Source of the DNA: Sporopachydermia quercuum
Lineage: Eukaryota > Ascomycota > Sporopachydermiomycetes > Sporopachydermiales > Sporopachydermiaceae
DNA: 64,000 nucleotides
Direction of reading: 5' to 3'
NCBI GenBank assembly: GCA_001599295.1
Contig: BCGN01000002.1
Location: forward strand, 992,001 to 1,056,000
Shown here: positions 52,464-62,154 of the stretch, piece by piece
Layout: every line of letters begins with the position of its first letter
Position numbering within the stretch: the stretch's first letter is position 1
Notes under the pieces: model-generated
What the model saw: only the letters and a program-made list of their open reading frames with translations
Databases searched by the model: none
What the model was told of the DNA's origin: nothing
Made by a program: the position numbers and the translations under genes

Positions 52464-55005
52464 CTATATAGCTTCAGATATAATACGAGCAGCTTCCTTA
52501 TATGTTTTCAATAAGGATTCACACTTAGCCCTATCCTGAGCAATCGTTTCATCTTCTCGCAAGAGCTCATCAAACAAATCTTCACGATACAACTTAGTGA
52601 CTAATCTATTTTGTATGATTTCTTTGCTATAATTCACCAATAAGCACATGACAGCCTTCGGGACCTGATCTTGAATCATCTCCCGGACAATATCAAAATA
52701 AGATATGATAAGTCTTCTAATAAGTTCACATTCTAATTTCTCTTTCTCAGTAAACTCAGCTTGTGCACCTGCAGATCCTCCAATTTCTAATGCACCCATG
52801 CTGGAAACAATGTTTCTTCCGTGAAAAGGATATTGGAATGAAGATCCTAAACTCCCATTTCTCTGTTGTTGCATCGATGATTGTTGAGACATCGATGCTC
52901 TTGAAAGATTTCCTTCCTTGTTACCGAAAAAGTAATTCAAGAAAGAGTCTCTATGTTCACCGTTGCTTTGGGAGGACATAGAGCTATTGCTTCTATTCAT
53001 ATCAGCTGGGCTAAAATCGGCAGCTGGGTCGATTTCTGTTGAACCAGTAGATGTTCCTGATGGCTCATTCTCTTCCTTGGTTAGCTCATTGGAACCATTT
53101 GTATCAGTTGATTTTCTAGGCGCATCATTTTCTGCTTCGAGTTTTTTCAGTTTTTCAGCTTCTGCACTAGCCAATCGGTTTTGTTTCTTTTCTTCTAAAA
53201 TCTCAGCCATTGCAACAGAAGGACCAACAAAGCTAGGATGATTTGTATTTATATAAGCTCTATGAATAGATATCAGACTTTCTACGTAGGAACTAGTAGG
53301 TCCTAATCTTTCTCTCAATAAGTCTGAAACGACTTCAATGAGTTTAGCTTGAAGTTTGGGATACCTGGATAATTCTGGGTTTCCACAATTATAGCAGATT
53401 TTCATTAATTCCTCGTAAACCATTTCAACACATCTTTGAGAAGGAGGTTCCAACAGTTTGATTTGAGGTTTGACTAATAAATCAAAGGCTAGTTCAGGAA
53501 CAAACAATGATGGACGAGGTCCCATTGAGTTTCTAACAGCAATCCTGATATCAGACACGCTTAGATTAGATGTAGCATTGATTGATTGTAAAGACTGACC
53601 AAATACTTCATGGTATATATGGTAAATTCTGGCACCCCCGCATAACTCATCGGTTGAAACTTCACTTGATGTTCCTTCAATTGATGAGATGAAATTAGAA
53701 GCAAATCTAGTCATCAATTGCAATATTAACGGGCCTCTATTTTCTGGACCTGAAAATTGATAATCTCCATATGATGCAAGTTCCTGTTCTGTCTGGCTCA
53801 TCAAAGTGTTCAATTTGGCCTTGATATCAGGTAATTTCTCTCTAATGTGGTTCATTAATGTAGTATTCAACGACTTTGCCAAGTACTTGGTTCCGCATTT
53901 ATAGCTCATATGTCTATAAACAGGATGATTATCAAAAAACTCCTCTTCTGATCTTAATGAATCACGAAGTGATTTACCAACATGAATATCTTGTTGAGAT
54001 CGGTTAACTACGCCAATGAATCCAAGCTTCAAAGGATACACTTTACCAGATAGAATTTCACCTGCGTTTGTTCCATGATCCATTAGGTCTAATTTTGTCA
54101 AAACACCAATAGTTCTTTTGCCTTGTGGATCAACTTGACTTGCCAATTTCAAAGATTCGGAGTTAACTAAATCAACATTAGCAGGCGAAACAGCAAGAAT
54201 AATGGAATTTGGTTTGGAAATGTATTCTAAAATCAAATTACGTGTTTGCTTTTCAATGTCAGTTGGTTGATCCCCAATTGGAATTTTGGTTAAACCCGGC
54301 AAATCAACTAAGGTCAAGTTCAAAACATGTGGGGAGAAGATTTTCAAGTTGATTGGTTGACGAGATATACCTTTATTGGTACCAGCTAATCTAGCCGTCT
54401 CGTTCTCAATTTCGCGTCTTATTTCATTGAAGTCGTAGAACCGTTTTCCAGGAATATGTAAAAACTCCCCCCATTCTTCATACTGAGCTGGTCGCAGATT
54501 TGATTGTTGTTGTTGTTGTTGGCCAGCTGCTTGAGAAGATAACGAAGCATTAGAGCTAGACAAATCAGGTTCATATCTAATGGAGCCATTTTGTTGCTGT
54601 TGTTGGCCATAAGGAGTACTTTGAGAAAATTCTTGCTGTTCGGTACTTCCACTGTTATTTGAAGGAGCAGGAATATTGAGAAGTTGAAGAACTAATGGTC
54701 TTCGGGTTACAATTCCAGTTCCTCGAGGTAAAAAGTCTCTACCAACTAGATGTAATTGTTAGTCGATCCAAATATATGACGTAGAGCCATCTTCATGATT
54801 TCAATGAAATGAGTACTCTTTCAAGGAAAGAAACAAAAGAAAGAAAGAAGAGCATACCAATGTTTTCCAAAACCGAAGATTTACCACAAGATTGAGATCC
54901 AACTACAACAACTTGTGGAAGATCTAATGCATCAGATCCTATGGTATTGAAGACTAGATCTTGTAGCTTATTCACCACAGGAATAAGATCTTCCAAAGAT
55001 GACAT
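52464..55005 (-). CDS. VPS1: Dynamin-like GTPase Vps1 (two exons)
   Basis: Vps1 is a dynamin-related GTPase acting in vacuolar sorting, endocytosis and peroxisome fission. Exon 1 is 55005-54858 ([16 protein letters not shown], with P-loop GSQSCGKSS) and exon 2 is 54745-52464, together 809 aa (S. cerevisiae 704). The 112-nt intron has a GTATGC donor, a GACTAAC branch point and a TCTAG acceptor. It joins LENI to [17 protein letters not shown] in phase. G3 is DLPGLT and G4 is TKLDLMD. Between the G2 region and [14 protein letters not shown] is a Gln/Ser/Asn-rich insert of about 55 residues. A second disordered insert (about 560-690) separates the stalk from the GTPase effector domain at the C-terminus. 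The start ATG is the conserved family start. Confidence 0.95.
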
Positions 55006-58000
55006 GATTAATATAAAACTCAACAAATCTTCAATGATTCAGTATAACTCTATAGTTATAAAATTTAACTGCGTTATTAATCGTAGTTTTAAACAATGTT
55101 TCGGAGGATTATCAACAAATCCTCTCTTATATACAACTTCTAACGTCACCGTTTTTTAACTTGTCGAATGCGTTGGATAGATCAACGAATAGATAGATAG
55201 ATCAACAACAACAACAATTAAATTAAATTAATCATCGAAAGATCAACCAGGATGCTTGTTGAATAAAAATCAATCTCAGATACTAGAAGTCAAATAGTTA
55301 CCAACTGAAGCTCAAAATGCCTTAATAGTTAGTTACTCGTTCTCGTATATTAGTTTTAATATCAGCTAGATATAATCTGAGTACGCCATCTATGACCCGC
55401 TCCTTCCAATCCAGATTTGGTATTTACCTTTGGAGAAGTTTCATAGGATTGAAGATATCGGAGACTGTGTTAGTTGTATTATTTCCGTAATACGTTAACG
55501 AATAAGATGGAATACAAGGGAGAATCTCTGTTTTTCATTGTTTCCGAAATTTTGCAAGAAGAGCTTATCCATGTTATACATAGGAGACTATTCAATTGCT
55601 TGGTTGGTGGAGAAAGAAAGATGATTCTGATACGGTGAAAATAAGGGTTGAGCTAATTAGGAATAATCAACAAAAGAGTTCTTACAAATCCACTGGTATA
55701 AGAGCTTGTAGTTAGTGAATATCTAGCGATATGTTGTTGCAATTGAGGTGTGCGCCGCAAGTTTGAAATGTACACAATTAGGGAGAACGGGAGTACTATG
55801 AGGTTTTCTATCGCGCGCATGGAAGGATTGATTTGTAGTAATCAAGATGAATATTTTGGTAAGTTCTAGTTGGTCATTTTGGATATTGGCTCAGAATGTA
55901 CATCATGGCAACATTTCTACGGCACTGATCCTAATGATTGTGGTAGTAGAAGCAATGAGACGTTTAAGGGGATTAAATCTACGGGTTATAACAACTATTG
56001 AGGAGATCAAAGTTAGACAATCGAAATACAGCCTTTATCATAAAACTGGGTTTTCGTGTACTAAGTAAAGTGGTAGGCGTCTTGAATGATCTGGGTAGAG
56101 CGTAGCGCATTTCTGTAGGTAAATCTACTTGTTCAGTATGTTACTATTGCTGTTATTTTCAAACAGTATGGTCAATTCTCTTGTTGCATTGTAAACAATA
56201 TTTAATTGATTTATCGAAAAGACTTTATCTATTCACTTCTTAAAAATTAATATTCTTTTAAAAGATGTGGTTTATACGACACATCTATTCCAACGCATAT
56301 TATATGTCAACTTTATTATATATTCTACGTTTATAAATAATTATTCCCTGTCCTCAACAAATCATCAATTCATTTCATATTTAAAAAAGACTCGAACTAT
56401 AATATTAGATATTTCATTTATTCTTTTCAAACATGATGAGCTATGTATAATTCGGTATGCAAATATAATATAATCAAGCAGTTCAATCTTCATTCAGGGG
56501 TAAATTAGTGAGTGTCTCAGCACTAAGTATTGATCCTCAACAGTATACAACCAAAGAAAACAGCAACGCCACCAAATTCCCAGTGGTGTCCTTAATAATA
56601 GAATTTTCTATCAAAATAATCTATTTAACAATAACCATATTATTGCATAATGATCTCTAAGATTACAGAATTTTGATGTTCTTGTATTTAAAGTTGAATA
56701 GGGGCCATCTATGATTCTTCAGTACCAAGACCCTCACCGCGTTCTAACGCGAAACTGCTATATTGATATGGTAATTATGTGATGAGATCAATAAAGGAGA
56801 CAAGATATAAACTGTTTACGTTTTAATCTAGGCTAAATATTGTTCAATTATAGGTTACCCATCAATTTCCTTAGTGTGGTCTCGAAACTCAATTGATAAG
56901 TATTGTAAACGAGGCAAACGAGAACTCAATAATTCAATACCCCTGATTTTTCACTTTAAATTTATAATACGGTTCTCGGTCAATAATACGAACATAAGGT
57001 GGGGATACAGCAGCGATATCAATTTTTACACAGAATTTCAAAGCTTCTTAATAGTTTTTCCGTATCTACTGATGAAACGATTCAACTGGCTGCTCCTTTT
57101 ATTGCGTGGTTACTATATATCGAATCTTTCACATATCATACATTCCCATCCTATTGTTTAAGATTAAAAAAATCCTATTTTGTAATCCCCTCTAAGCTCC
57201 GTCTCAAAATTTAACCAACTAATGAACATACACTCATCTATTACGGAAAACAAAGAAATCATTTCAAGACAGCATTGCACTCTATGTATCTGCCCATCAC
57301 TCTTTATCCATCTCCCTCTCTCAAGAGAACACAACACAGCTCACCCCGGCTTGTATGTTGTTCTGTAATCGGATTGAACCGCTGGATAAGAAATTCAGAT
57401 CACAAATTCCCTAATTTGGAAATTAGTCTTAATAATGTCAAAATAAAGTTGTGTACAAGCTTTGTATTGAAAAAGCTTAACTTAATTTGTACTGTAAGTC
57501 AACTTACCAAAGAAACATTGCGGGTAATTGTAACGCAATATTCACAAGAGATGAGCTGCTTCCTTGAAGCAAAATAGAAAAAATCGAAGAAAAAATCGAA
57601 GAACTACTGAAAGTGGTTTCTACTTTTGGGAATTTAACAAATTGTGACATGACCGACCATTACTTTCATCAGTGTTTTTTCCGGCTAATTGCACATTTCT
57701 TATTATGAAAATTGGGCTTCTTGTAAACAGATCAGAATGACTAAAGTCTGATGAGTAAGGTAAGCACAATAAGTCATTTTATTTTACTAAGTAATTTGTC
57801 ACGCCATCAGTAAATGTATTTCTTCTTGCTAGTTACTTAATATGGAAAGAATTTTCGCTGTGAAAAGTTTGCAACGATAACTTGACGAAAGACATATATA
57901 TGTTGGAGAGTTTTAATGAATTTCCGCGGGTTGGCATTATGAAATTTATAAAGAAAGGCAAATTGATAATAAAACCTATAGATTTATTNTTGGTATTTGA

Positions 58001-59508
58001 TATCAAAGAAGTGATGATATTTTTGATTGTTGTTCCAGAAGTACAAACAGGACAAAATGAATGAGGTTGCGGAAACATATTAATTTGCATCAACTTGCAT
58101 GATTGCTGGTAGTGACAATACCAAAGACAAACGATAAACTGTTTGGATCAATTATTGTATTCTACATTTCCGAAGAGAATAAAATATACTCTGAAGAGAC
58201 AAATGTCAATAGAAAAATCATCAAGCTTTATATACGTAGTATTTGTTACATCTAACTCGATCATTGACAAGTGAGCAACTTGTTTTCACTCATCTTGCAC
58301 TGGGTCTAATAGGCCACTTATATCCCCAGTGCATACATCTTGCAGGAAATCTTCATATATTGCAAATTCATTTTCAATCTTTGTTCTTTGATGACAATAT
58401 TCATATCATACAAACTCAGTCACCAGAGTATTTCTATTTTACCTGCAATGATTCATTTTTTATTCCAATCGCAACACAATTTGTTTGTACTTATCGTATG
58501 GGTTAATTACGATTTTCTTTTGAGTATCGTTATAGCTAATTGATCAGCCTTTCGAGTGTTAACTCTGCGTCGTATTGTATACGACGAGAGATAACTCTCT
58601 ACTAAATAAACAAACAAACAGCCAAACAATACAAGCTCAACTCATCATGATTTTATTATTTAAATCTTCATTATAGCCAAAATTTTATGTTATTTTTCTC
58701 ATCAATTATAATTTCAACATCCTCTCCTATCTTGTTTCCACTTAGCCCATCGATTGGTAACTTTCTGACATAATTTAAATCAAATCACTTTCCAACAGTT
58801 CATCCCTTAGTCGATGCTCGTTGGCTTTTCCTTACCTTCTTTCAAACGGTTTGAATTATCATATAAATCAATAGGTACCTAAACCTATTCACTATCAGGA
58901 AGCTTTGTTTCATGCAGTCTAATTTCATCACAACAATAGCAACAATAACAATAACAACACATTCATACCTACTTCGTTCCAAATCCATAGAAATAAAACC
59001 TTCCCTATTAATTAGACTTTCTTCGGTATATTGATATACCGAACTTTCTTTAAGGCTTCACATCCAAATTTGTAAGAAAAATCGTATCATAAAATGTTTC
59101 CCAAATAATAAGCTTCTCTCTCCACTATTAGAACTATTGTAACATATAAAAAGGGAAGAAGAGCCAACCAAACGACTTCTTCGAAACAATATCTGACGAG
59201 AAGCAAGGATGAAGGAGCTTTATTCTTTTGAAATATCATGTTAAAAGAAAACAAAGTATAAGATAGAGGTTAAAAAGGCTGTTTTGAGACCCGCTATTAT
59301 CATTGACTTAAAAGCGTACTACCTGCGAACGAAAAAAGAAAATAGCTGATTAGAAGTCGCTTGGTCATTTGACAATTAAGAAGAGGAATCACAAAGATTC
59401 TGCTCTAAAATATCAAGAGTTGCATTTCAATTGACACGGAATACAGCTTGAAAAAGAATACGACTTGGAAATTGGGAGATTCAAATATTCAATTCTACAA
59501 CAGAAATA
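55006..59508. other. 4.5-kb gene-poor stretch upstream of VPS1
   Basis: This is the largest gap in the window. It contains a (GATA)n/(CAA)n microsatellite near 55190-55220, one weak candidate spliced ORF (55798-56068), and scattered open frames of 60-100 codons with no recognisable family. Pyrimidine-rich DNA at about 58780-59000 could be promoter sequence for the small gene at 59509. No RNA gene or transposon domain was seen. Confidence 0.5.
55798..56068 (+). other. Possible unrecognised small spliced ORF
   Basis: ATG at 55798 opens MRFSIARMEGLICSNQDEYF and reaches G followed by a GTAAGT donor at 55859. A possible acceptor at 55946 or 55949, after a CCTAAT box (a weak branch point), restores the frame to EAMRRLRGLNLRVITTIEE. 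That frame continues to a stop at 56066-56068. The product would be about 60 aa. The joined sequence reads like a helical basic protein, but the branch point is non-consensus and no family was recognised. Confidence 0.28.
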
Positions 59509-59724
59509 ATGATTGCTAGTTCGTTTGTATTCAACGCTTATCGACCATACGCCATGAAGACACCTTTTTTCCAACGAAGGGCTGGAGTCTTGATGCTATC
59601 ATATCTAGTTATGAGTCTCACTGTCCCGTTCATGTTCCCTCTAAAATCAAGTTTAAATCATGAGATTGAAAGTAATAATGTGGTGCAACACCATCATCTA
59701 CACAAAGGAGTTGTAATGCACTAG
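59509..59724 (+). CDS. Small predicted single-pass membrane protein
   Basis: The ORF of 71 codons starts at ATG 59509. Residues 1-24 are basic and lack acidic residues (NAYRPYAMKTPFFQRRAG), followed by a hydrophobic segment of about 20 residues (VLMLSYLVMSLTVPFMFPL), then a polar His-rich tail. The layout fits a small mitochondrial or endomembrane protein with an N-terminal targeting segment. I do not recognise a family. The ORF is short enough to be chance, but its composition differs from the random frames around it and it sits in an otherwise empty 5-kb stretch. It is convergent with the hydrolase-phosphatase gene. Confidence 0.4.
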   Translation: MIASSFVFNAYRPYAMKTPFFQRRAGVLMLSYLVMSLTVPFMFPLKSSLNHEIESNNVVQHHHLHKGVVMH

Positions 59725-60132
59725 ACTCATATTCATATCTGTATTTAATGGCGCTCTCTTTATAAAGAGAACTGTTGCTGTTGCCTGGTGTATATCAACA
59801 GTTCAATAAAGAATGTGGATGTGAGCAGTGAGCACTAGCTAAGTGTTCTTCGCTTTGTTCATGTTGGGCTTCGGTTTGGTTTTTTCGTTATTCGTTCTTT
59901 AATGTTATTTCAATTTGGATTTATATTGTATCTTAATAAAATGGTTGGCTGGTCTACGAGTTGGTTCTCTGATTTACTTCTGTATTCACTAATATACAGT
60001 TAATTAAGTATCTATAACTAAGAAAATAAAAGTTGTTTGTACTGTCATATTATTCCTTATAAAATGTAGATGGTGTATTATTCTTGTCCCTGTTAATTGT
60101 ATTTCTTTACCCAGACCTTACGCAAAATGAAC
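59725..60132. other. Intergenic, convergent 3' ends
   Basis: Just over 400 bp between the small membrane-protein ORF and the hydrolase-phosphatase gene. AT-rich with TTTAATGTT-type words. Nothing recognised. Confidence 0.45.
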
Positions 60133-62154
60133 TTATGCTTCATAACGTACATGAAGAATATCAATAAAGTGTAAATGTTTAATGCCTGGTTTTCTTGCTT
60201 TTTGAAACGCTTCAACTGCTTCGTCAACAGTAAAACCTAATCTTTCCACCAGGTAACAGCAGATCAAAAATCCAGTTCGATTGAATCCATAATGGCAATG
60301 TACAACAATATGATTATCGGAATTCTCTTCCAAGATTGAGTCAACTAATTTAATGAATTTTTTCACTGTTGACGAACTAGGAGGAATTTTCGATACAGTT
60401 GCAAATTTATGGTACCTTATTCGTTTAAATGATTCAGGATCATATGGTGGATCCCATGAGCTTATATCGATCACATCAGTTATATCAGGATATAATTCTT
60501 CAAATAGAACAGGGTTATGTTCATCATCAGTTTCTCTCAAAGTTTTCATTGCTCTAAATGGACTCATTTTTTCTACAGACGATATGGTATCAGATACTGG
60601 TTTCAACTTCTTCCATTTAGCTTCATTCTTCAAACTCCATTTCCCATCACCATATTCGGCCTTATATCTCAATACCCAAGACTGAGATAATACCGGTAAT
60701 TGTTTTTCTATGAACTCGGAAATTAGACCAGCTACCAGTTTTGGTTTTTCTCCAATCAAAGCATGACCAGCATCGTGAATTAGTTTAGTTTCTATTTCTT
60801 GACTTTCAGTAGAAGACTCTGCTTCTAAACCAAGCATCCATTTCCTAACAATTTCAACATTATCACAAGGTGTAACGATATCCTCAGTTGCCCCCAATAT
60901 ATAAGCACCACCTTTATTAGCTTTCAAGATCTGGTAGACAGTGTACCACTCTTGTTTAGTCGCAGGTGTGAATCCATTGGCGACTTTAACCCAAACCCGT
61001 GAGTCTACATCTAAATTCCAACGCATCTGTCTTTGCTTTATAGCCTCATCTCTACAACTGGCCACGCTCAACATTCGTTCTACGCTTGGTGAGTCTAATC
61101 CATTGTACCTATCAAGTATTCTGAACCCGTCAAATATAAAGGTTGGTGCTGATTTCAGCATCTGCAGTTTCTTCTTAGCATCTTCCTTCATTTCTATTGG
61201 TGGACAAATTGTTACCAGAGATTTACACCTCGGACCTAATTTGATGCCTAATTTAGCTGCTAAATTGGTACCCATTGAATGACCTACCAGAATAACATCT
61301 CGGCCTTCCAATGAAACAGCTTCCCTGTCGTTAGGTATATCATGTTGTAAAAACTCATAAAGAATGTCAACCATGCGATCTGAATTGTAATCCTCAAATG
61401 TGAGTTTATCATTTATCAGATATTTCTTTTCTTGCTCATATGGCAATTGTTGCAAACTCTTATCGAATTTATACCCGGGCATTCTAAATGAAGCTCTACT
61501 TAATCCGCAACCAGGTAAATCGATTCCAACAACATCAGAAAACTGAGAAAATAAATCAATAAGCCCTTCAAATTGCGAAACTTGACCACCAAGACCATGA
61601 ATCAGCATTATAACGGGTAGCTTTTCAAAATCTCCAAATGGGGTAGGACCAAATTCATCTGCATTGGGGATCCCGTCAAACTCGGACTGTCCCAACTGGA
61701 TATCTGGATTGATGTCTCCTCCTGAGCCATCATCTCTATCTATACTTTGTTTCATTGAATCTGTGTCTAGAGGGTTCAGAACCGGCGTATTGAGCTCGCT
61801 TTCACTAGTGTCTCCTTTACCTTCAAGATCATTGTCAGAGTTACTTTTCTTATCAGGAGTGGAATTCTTTTTCTGTTCAGGAAGAGGAAATCTTGAAAGC
61901 TTGTATGATCTCAGAGGATGTGGAATGAGAATACCCCTAACAGTACATCTCTTCGTCGATAACGACTCAACAGAAAGTTCAAATGTAGAATTATANTTCT
62001 CGACAAGCTGACTGGCTACTGATTCAGTCAAGATTGCTTGTTCTAGTTCTGTGTACCAAATTGATCTACGTATCAGTGATAGCAAAAAGGATGGTGACCA
62101 CGAAAATTTAGTCTCGTGGAGAGTTCTCTGTGGGATTGGATCAGTCCCTGCCAT
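60133..62154 (-). CDS. Fusion of alpha/beta-hydrolase and capping-enzyme-like dual-specificity phosphatase
   Basis: One 673-aa frame from the ATG at 62152-62154 carries two enzymes; the frame upstream has only TTG. The N-terminal two-thirds is an alpha/beta-hydrolase: VIMLIHGLGG oxyanion region, GHSMG elbow with Ser293, Asp425 in GATEDIVTP and His464 in DAGHALIG, a complete triad. The C-terminal 150 residues are a cysteine phosphatase with HCHYGFNRTG (Cys620, Arg626). The following LICCYLVERLGFTVDEAVEAF and ARKPGI closely resemble the RNA-triphosphatase domain of animal mRNA capping enzyme (HCTHGFNRTGFLIC, ARPPGI). The segment 105-190 between the N-terminus and the hydrolase core is disordered. 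Substrates of both halves are unknown. The domain pairing may exist in other fungi. Confidence 0.88.
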   Translation of the reverse strand: MAGTDPIPQRTLHETKFSWSPSFLLSLIRRSIWYTELEQAILTESVASQLVEXYNSTFELSVESLSTKRCTVRGILIPHPLRSYKLSRFPLPEQKKNSTPDKKSNSDNDLEGKGDTSESELNTPVLNPLDTDSMKQSIDRDDGSGGDINPDIQLGQSEFDGIPNADEFGPTPFGDFEKLPVIMLIHGLGGQVSQFEGLIDLFSQFSDVVGIDLPGCGLSRASFRMPGYKFDKSLQQLPYEQEKKYLINDKLTFEDYNSDRMVDILYEFLQHDIPNDREAVSLEGRDVILVGHSMGTNLAAKLGIKLGPRCKSLVTICPPIEMKEDAKKKLQMLKSAPTFIFDGFRILDRYNGLDSPSVERMLSVASCRDEAIKQRQMRWNLDVDSRVWVKVANGFTPATKQEWYTVYQILKANKGGAYILGATEDIVTPCDNVEIVRKWMLGLEAESSTESQEIETKLIHDAGHALIGEKPKLVAGLISEFIEKQLPVLSQSWVLRYKAEYGDGKWSLKNEAKWKKLKPVSDTISSVEKMSPFRAMKTLRETDDEHNPVLFEELYPDITDVIDISSWDPPYDPESFKRIRYHKFATVSKIPPSSSTVKKFIKLVDSILEENSDNHIVVHCHYGFNRTGFLICCYLVERLGFTVDEAVEAFQKARKPGIKHLHFIDILHVRYEA

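Follow-up and report, generated by a model that had tools for sequence, protein, structure and literature searches.

What would a Cys-based phosphatase, carried on the same chain as an alpha/beta hydrolase, do in a yeast? Capping in fungi is attributed to metal-dependent (TTM) triphosphatases and in animals and plants to Cys-type enzymes, and antifungal drugs that exploit this contrast have been proposed (passages of PMC4791841 and PMC2904801). The gene that raises the question lies near one end of the window, the whole stretch of 64,000 nucleotides analysed here, and we examined its frame, its two domains, its relatives and the other capping genes of the same genome.

One open reading frame encodes both domains

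The initial annotation had described a single uninterrupted frame at 60133-62154, and this openness was confirmed (673 codons, no internal stop); that annotation had given no strand, which is minus, the plus-strand reading of the same interval being broken by many stops. The gene was taken to start at the first ATG, upstream of which the frame stays open for a further 35 codons (708 in total). Twenty mononucleotide shuffles of the window gave longest open frames of just 111 to 168 codons, and a frame of 673 codons is therefore not a product of chance. The features of the gene are as follows.

60133..62154, minus: whole open reading frame, 673 aa plus stop (frame analysis)
61618..62154, minus: N-terminal region, aa 1-179, with no best-scoring Pfam stretch when the whole protein was scanned
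60730..61617, minus: alpha/beta hydrolase domain, aa 180-475 (Pfam, AlphaFold2 model, fold matches)
61276..61278, minus: nucleophile Ser293 in GHSMG (sequence)
60880..60882, minus: acid Asp425 in GATED (sequence)
60763..60765, minus: His464 in HDAGH (sequence)
60499..60699, minus: linker between the domains, aa 486-552, with 0 stops and 0 ambiguous bases (frame analysis)
60136..60498, minus: Cys-based phosphatase domain, aa 553-673 (Pfam DSPc, PDB matches)
60361..60408, minus: general-acid-type loop, aa 583-598 (KFATVSKIPPSSSTVK), with Ser588 in the column of the acid (alignment)
60277..60297, minus: phosphate-binding loop, catalytic Cys620 to Arg626 (sequence, alignment)

A Pfam scan of the whole protein (16 families at E up to 1) supplied the domain search of both halves that the initial annotation had proposed: the halves match Abhydrolase_1 (180-468, E 5.9e-14) and DSPc (586-665, E 2.4e-11), each above its curated cut-off. 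By eye, aa ~92-175 of the N-terminal region are acidic and rich in Ser and Asp.

It is highly improbable that two adjacent genes, or an assembly error, have been read here as one. Third-position GC does fall from 0.34 in the first part of the frame to 0.22 in the last, and the linker shows a weaker base periodicity (0.40, 0.37, 0.30), but the linker runs in one frame with neither a stop nor an ambiguous base, and the differences in GC between codon positions keep to the same frame across the N-terminal, hydrolase and phosphatase parts. The single ambiguous base of the gene falls in codon 53, far from the domain junction. The genome assembly that we searched (16.39 Mb in 12 contigs) has the same frame at C2:1052136-1054154, minus strand and 100% identical, which adds no independent support because the assembly is the window's own source.

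The host is probably a budding yeast with the standard code, given that all five CTG codons in its own CDC14 stretch face Leu of S. cerevisiae CDC14 and that the two sequences are identical at 152 of 208 positions; a reading of CTG as Ser was rejected on the same five codons. The window as a whole holds 51 ambiguous bases, several of them within open frames, which may be heterozygous sites. Beside the fusion gene, about 5 kb (55040-60130) contain no open frame longer than 120 aa, and beyond this stretch lies a dynamin-like gene (52464-54758, minus; VPS1-like by eye). This gene seems to start on the far side of an intron, in a candidate first exon at 54793-55038, in which case the listed ATG frame of 52464-54083 is too short.

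The N-terminal half is a serine hydrolase of broad kinship

Judged by its sequence and modelled fold, the N-terminal half is an alpha/beta serine hydrolase with an intact catalytic triad; the Ser293-Asp425-His464 triad first read from the letters is complete and sits in GHSMG, GATED and HDAGH. AlphaFold2 run on the query sequence alone modelled the whole protein with a mean pLDDT of 31.5, and the hydrolase half, from a 13-row alignment in which one row (L022) is itself a piece of the query, gave a pTM of 0.75 and a mean pLDDT of 66.8. This model has 1157 fold matches at E up to 0.001, too many for the fold to name a substrate. ABHD6 and bacterial esterases have the fold and the triad in common with the hydrolase half but are only 12-21% identical to it among the fold matches listed. 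No close paralogue of the hydrolase was found among frames of at least 100 aa at the 17 other places in the genome that match Abhydrolase_1.

Among these fold matches are the monoacylglycerol lipase ABHD6 and a phospholipase A, and the matches of profile A3, among 386 sequences, include bifunctional epoxide hydrolase 2 (EPHX2, the mammalian soluble epoxide hydrolase). These matches speak for our main rival explanation, an enzyme of metabolites or lipids in which the phosphatase would act on an inositol pyrophosphate, a nucleotide or a lipid phosphate and the hydrolase on an ester of that small molecule or of a related one, in the manner of EPHX2. An alpha/beta hydrolase fold that matches so many enzymes is, however, a poor pointer to lipids. 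The phosphatase of EPHX2 is N-terminal and of the HAD type. Its alpha/beta hydrolase occupies residues 261-529 of 555 (PDB 1s8o), and the fusion protein likewise carries both kinds of enzyme on a single chain, but it has no HAD match in the Pfam scan.

The phosphatase half is nearest to the RNA 5'-phosphatase group

Several tests, with moderate support from trees, place the phosphatase half nearest to the Cys-type RNA 5'-phosphatases (RNGTT, DUSP11/PIR1 and the baculovirus phosphatase; hereafter the RNA group). The best 9 of 101 PDB matches (60 shown, E up to 1) are the RNGTT capping enzyme, the baculovirus phosphatase and PIR1, at 57.7-51.0 bits, followed by DUSP23 (38.6 bits), PTEN (28.8) and CDC14B (27.1). 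A profile built from four members of the RNA group, with the query left out, scores the query at 92.2 bits and, among the 5 that the test took in out of the genome's 7 other DSPc matches, the best sequence from outside the group, the yeast's own CDC14, at 44.6 bits; a CDC14/PTEN profile gives the query 46.9 bits and a VH1-type profile 32.0 bits, the reference segments having been trimmed to the part that aligns with the query, which may slightly favour it. Searched in reverse against the genome, the RNGTT segment finds the fusion gene first (63.8 bits; next 39.9), as does the baculovirus segment (58.7 bits; next 35.6). Profile A1 also ranks the RNA group top in the PDB, with DUSP23 second, but this ranking is no test of kinship because A1 contains the query and members of the group.

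The C-terminal HCxxGxxRTG loop noted in the initial annotation is present as HCHYGFNRTG (H619 to G628, with C620 and R626), which conforms to the HCxxGxNRTG pattern of the RNA group, and its H, G, N, R, T and G are invariant in all five rows of A1 (the PIR1 row being a chain with Ser for Cys). The RNGTT triphosphatase domain, DUSP11/PIR1 and the baculovirus phosphatase share with the query this loop, an ID-I/L-S/T ... Y strand and the lack of Asp in the acid column. They differ from it in having Gly in that column where the query has Ser, in an identity of 28-37%, and in that the query is fused to an alpha/beta hydrolase and not to a guanylyltransferase, in a yeast with a Cet1-type enzyme.

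In a tree of 15 rows, the query and the five RNA-group rows fall on one side of a branch with support of 98/97, the query lying outside those five rows (79/79), and a topology holding the query with CDC14 and PTEN came just short of rejection (AU p 0.0502). A second tree of 14 rows, from which the mouse RNGTT row and two edited rows were removed and to which TpbA and AtPFA-DSP1 were added, lowered the support for the query with the RNA group to 84/80; in this set a grouping with CDC14 was rejected (AU p 0.0172), and a grouping with TpbA and AtPFA-DSP1, absent from the best tree, was not (AU p 0.215). Neither tree contains DUSP23, PRL or PTPMT1. A place beside the RNA group is thus the best supported, and the trees still allow a wider clade. 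To the initial annotation, the loop and the helix after it had looked more like the RNA triphosphatase/PIR1 group than like MAPK-type enzymes, and it had named a grouping with lipid or MAPK phosphatases as a result that would tell against this; PDB scores, profiles, reverse searches and trees all bear out the closer kinship, the CDC14 and PTEN rows likewise lie further away, and the contrary grouping is absent from the best trees, though the unrejected grouping with TpbA and the inositol pyrophosphatase AtPFA-DSP1 (p 0.215) counts in favour of the metabolite or lipid explanation. Against that explanation, the PDB, profile and reverse-search scores of the query are all nearer to the RNA 5'-phosphatases.

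A protein phosphatase, in which the C-terminal DSP would act on phosphoproteins and the hydrolase half would be a targeting or scaffold part, is unlikely: the DSPc match above its cut-off agrees with it, but the marks of a MAPK-type DSP are missing, as the query scores 32.0 bits with the VH1-type profile but 92.2 with that of the RNA group, and the acid loop has no Asp or any other acidic residue, and an intact serine hydrolase triad would be odd in a mere scaffold. Elsewhere in the genome, a DSP-like domain (L009, C7:495177-495440) has CENGNNKSA in place of HCx5R and lacks the Arg, and is perhaps a dead phosphatase.

The acid loop suggests phosphoanhydride chemistry

The loop at aa 583-598 contains 0 acidic residues, in keeping with the RNA group, which has no general acid. 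In the column of the acid, the query has Ser588 and each of the five RNA-group rows has Gly; outside the group, eight of nine rows have Asp (two CDC14, PTEN, three YVH1-type, L007 and 3lj8), and the ninth, own_L005, has a gap there, at the cut made in that row. Phosphoanhydrides are the natural substrates of acid-less PTPs in the RNA and inositol pyrophosphate (PP-InsP) cases. Taken together with the acid-less loop, this leads us to propose that the phosphatase half would likewise cleave a phosphoanhydride.

Which phosphoanhydride is a separate matter. The PTPs without a WPD motif include MCE1, the baculovirus phosphatase and PIR1, and the missing acid is reported also for the Siw14/PFA-DSP inositol pyrophosphatases, PTEN and CDC25 (a passage of PMC9038691), so that loss of the acid does not single out RNA. 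Nor is the acid column a clean marker of function that could settle the chemistry alone, since the PTEN row has Asp and PTEN is yet on that acid-less list. Siw14/PFA-DSP enzymes are Cys-based and lack the general acid, like the query (same passage), a likeness that again favours the metabolite or lipid explanation; on the other side, the query has no PF03162 (Siw14-type) match in the Pfam scan at E up to 1, and the genome has separate PF03162 genes, so the fusion gene is not its sole acid-less PTP. Weighing both sides, we give an enzyme of metabolites or lipids a substantial minority chance. The kinship of the phosphatase half makes 5'-phosphorylated RNA our first guess at its substrate and PP-InsP the second.

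Capping genes are encoded elsewhere in the genome

As the initial annotation had stated for yeasts, capping would here use a metal-dependent triphosphatase: a Cet1-type gene is present (PF02940, 168.9 bits), as are a Ceg1-type guanylyltransferase match (PF01331, 115.7 bits), on a contig other than that of the fusion gene, and RAI1 (330.6 bits). With these genes in place capping does not need the fusion gene, and it is not likely to be the job of the predicted enzyme; because the genome already has a Cet1-type triphosphatase, the fusion phosphatase would be an extra enzyme. That the fusion protein is instead this yeast's capping triphosphatase, in replacement of Cet1, is hardly credible: triphosphatase domains of capping enzymes are indeed among its closest relatives, but the Cet1-type gene and the guanylyltransferase match are both there, and the fusion protein carries no guanylyltransferase domain of its own (no PF01331 match in the Pfam scan at E up to 1), in which it differs from the metazoan and plant capping enzymes with their guanylyltransferase on the same chain.

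The guanylyltransferase match, at C6:1375249-1375849 (L037/L038), comes in two pieces, one with an internal TGA and TAG, which may be due to an intron, to errors in the sequence or to damage in this copy. RAI1 lies about 70 kb from the fusion gene, a distance that we do not take as linkage.

Relatives and earlier descriptions

A short-pattern scan of IMG/VR with the whole fusion protein gave 13 pattern stretches and no relative, the loop motif HCHYGFNRTGF occurs 0 times in IMG/VR and 0 times in the GTDB genomes, and the phosphatase half had no match in phages (tblastn). With the phosphatase alignment A1, short-pattern scans returned a relative in 0 of 18 stretches in the GTDB genomes and in 1 of 11 in IMG/VR; the latter (L036) is a capping enzyme and served as an algal-type reference, its organism being presumed. 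Its contig (IMGVR_UViG_3300050343_000299; L036/L031) has a minus-strand frame of 692 aa that reads by eye as a triphosphatase-guanylyltransferase capping enzyme, and the neighbours are eukaryote-like (an eEF3-like ABC protein and a sugar kinase with repeats); the contig, though classed as viral, may come from a green alga.

We take it that filamentous ascomycetes commonly share this hydrolase-phosphatase architecture, with similar sequence around the junction, and to our knowledge their proteins of this kind are annotated only by machine. Among the open-licence matches listed, searched by titles and the openings of abstracts, we found no paper on an alpha/beta hydrolase-DSP fusion, and papers on the phosphatases of Neurospora and Aspergillus fumigatus catalogue DSPc genes in main texts that use the words 'capping' and 'hydrolase' 0 times; one of those DSPs, for example N. 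crassa dsp-5 (NCU05049), may be the orthologue. The protein thus consists of known domains in an unusual pairing, with a phosphatase in an unexpected host group, and we found no described function for it.

A proposed two-headed enzyme

The reading that we favour, tentatively, is a two-headed enzyme: a serine hydrolase joined to a phosphatase of the RNA-group type that would act on a phosphoanhydride, most plausibly 5'-tri- or diphosphate RNA outside capping. By the mechanism known for the RNA 5'-phosphatase group, Cys620 would attack the terminal phosphate of the phosphoanhydride to form a cysteinyl-phosphate, from which phosphate would then be released; since a phosphoanhydride offers a good leaving group, no general acid would be needed. 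The likeliest substrate would be RNA that ends in a 5'-tri- or diphosphate, in a role other than capping such as quality control or decay of uncapped RNA, and the hydrolase half would cleave an ester or thioester through Ser293. The two halves may act in sequence on one molecule, as the initial annotation had suggested. Further points against the favoured reading are that the query has Ser where the RNA group has Gly and that nothing links the hydrolase half to RNA. We regard as very improbable a more specific proposal, in which fungi would keep a Cys-type RNA 5'-phosphatase beside Cet1 as part of a serine hydrolase, and both heads would treat the same RNA 5' end one after the other: first the hydrolase would take off a non-canonical cap group that is ester-linked or bears an acyl, and then the phosphatase would strip the exposed phosphates to allow degradation of the RNA.

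A yeast gene that is nearest to the Cys-type group, and that probably works outside capping, suggests that this group is not absent from fungi, and raises the question of which RNA end, or which other phosphoanhydride, the fusion phosphatase handles.
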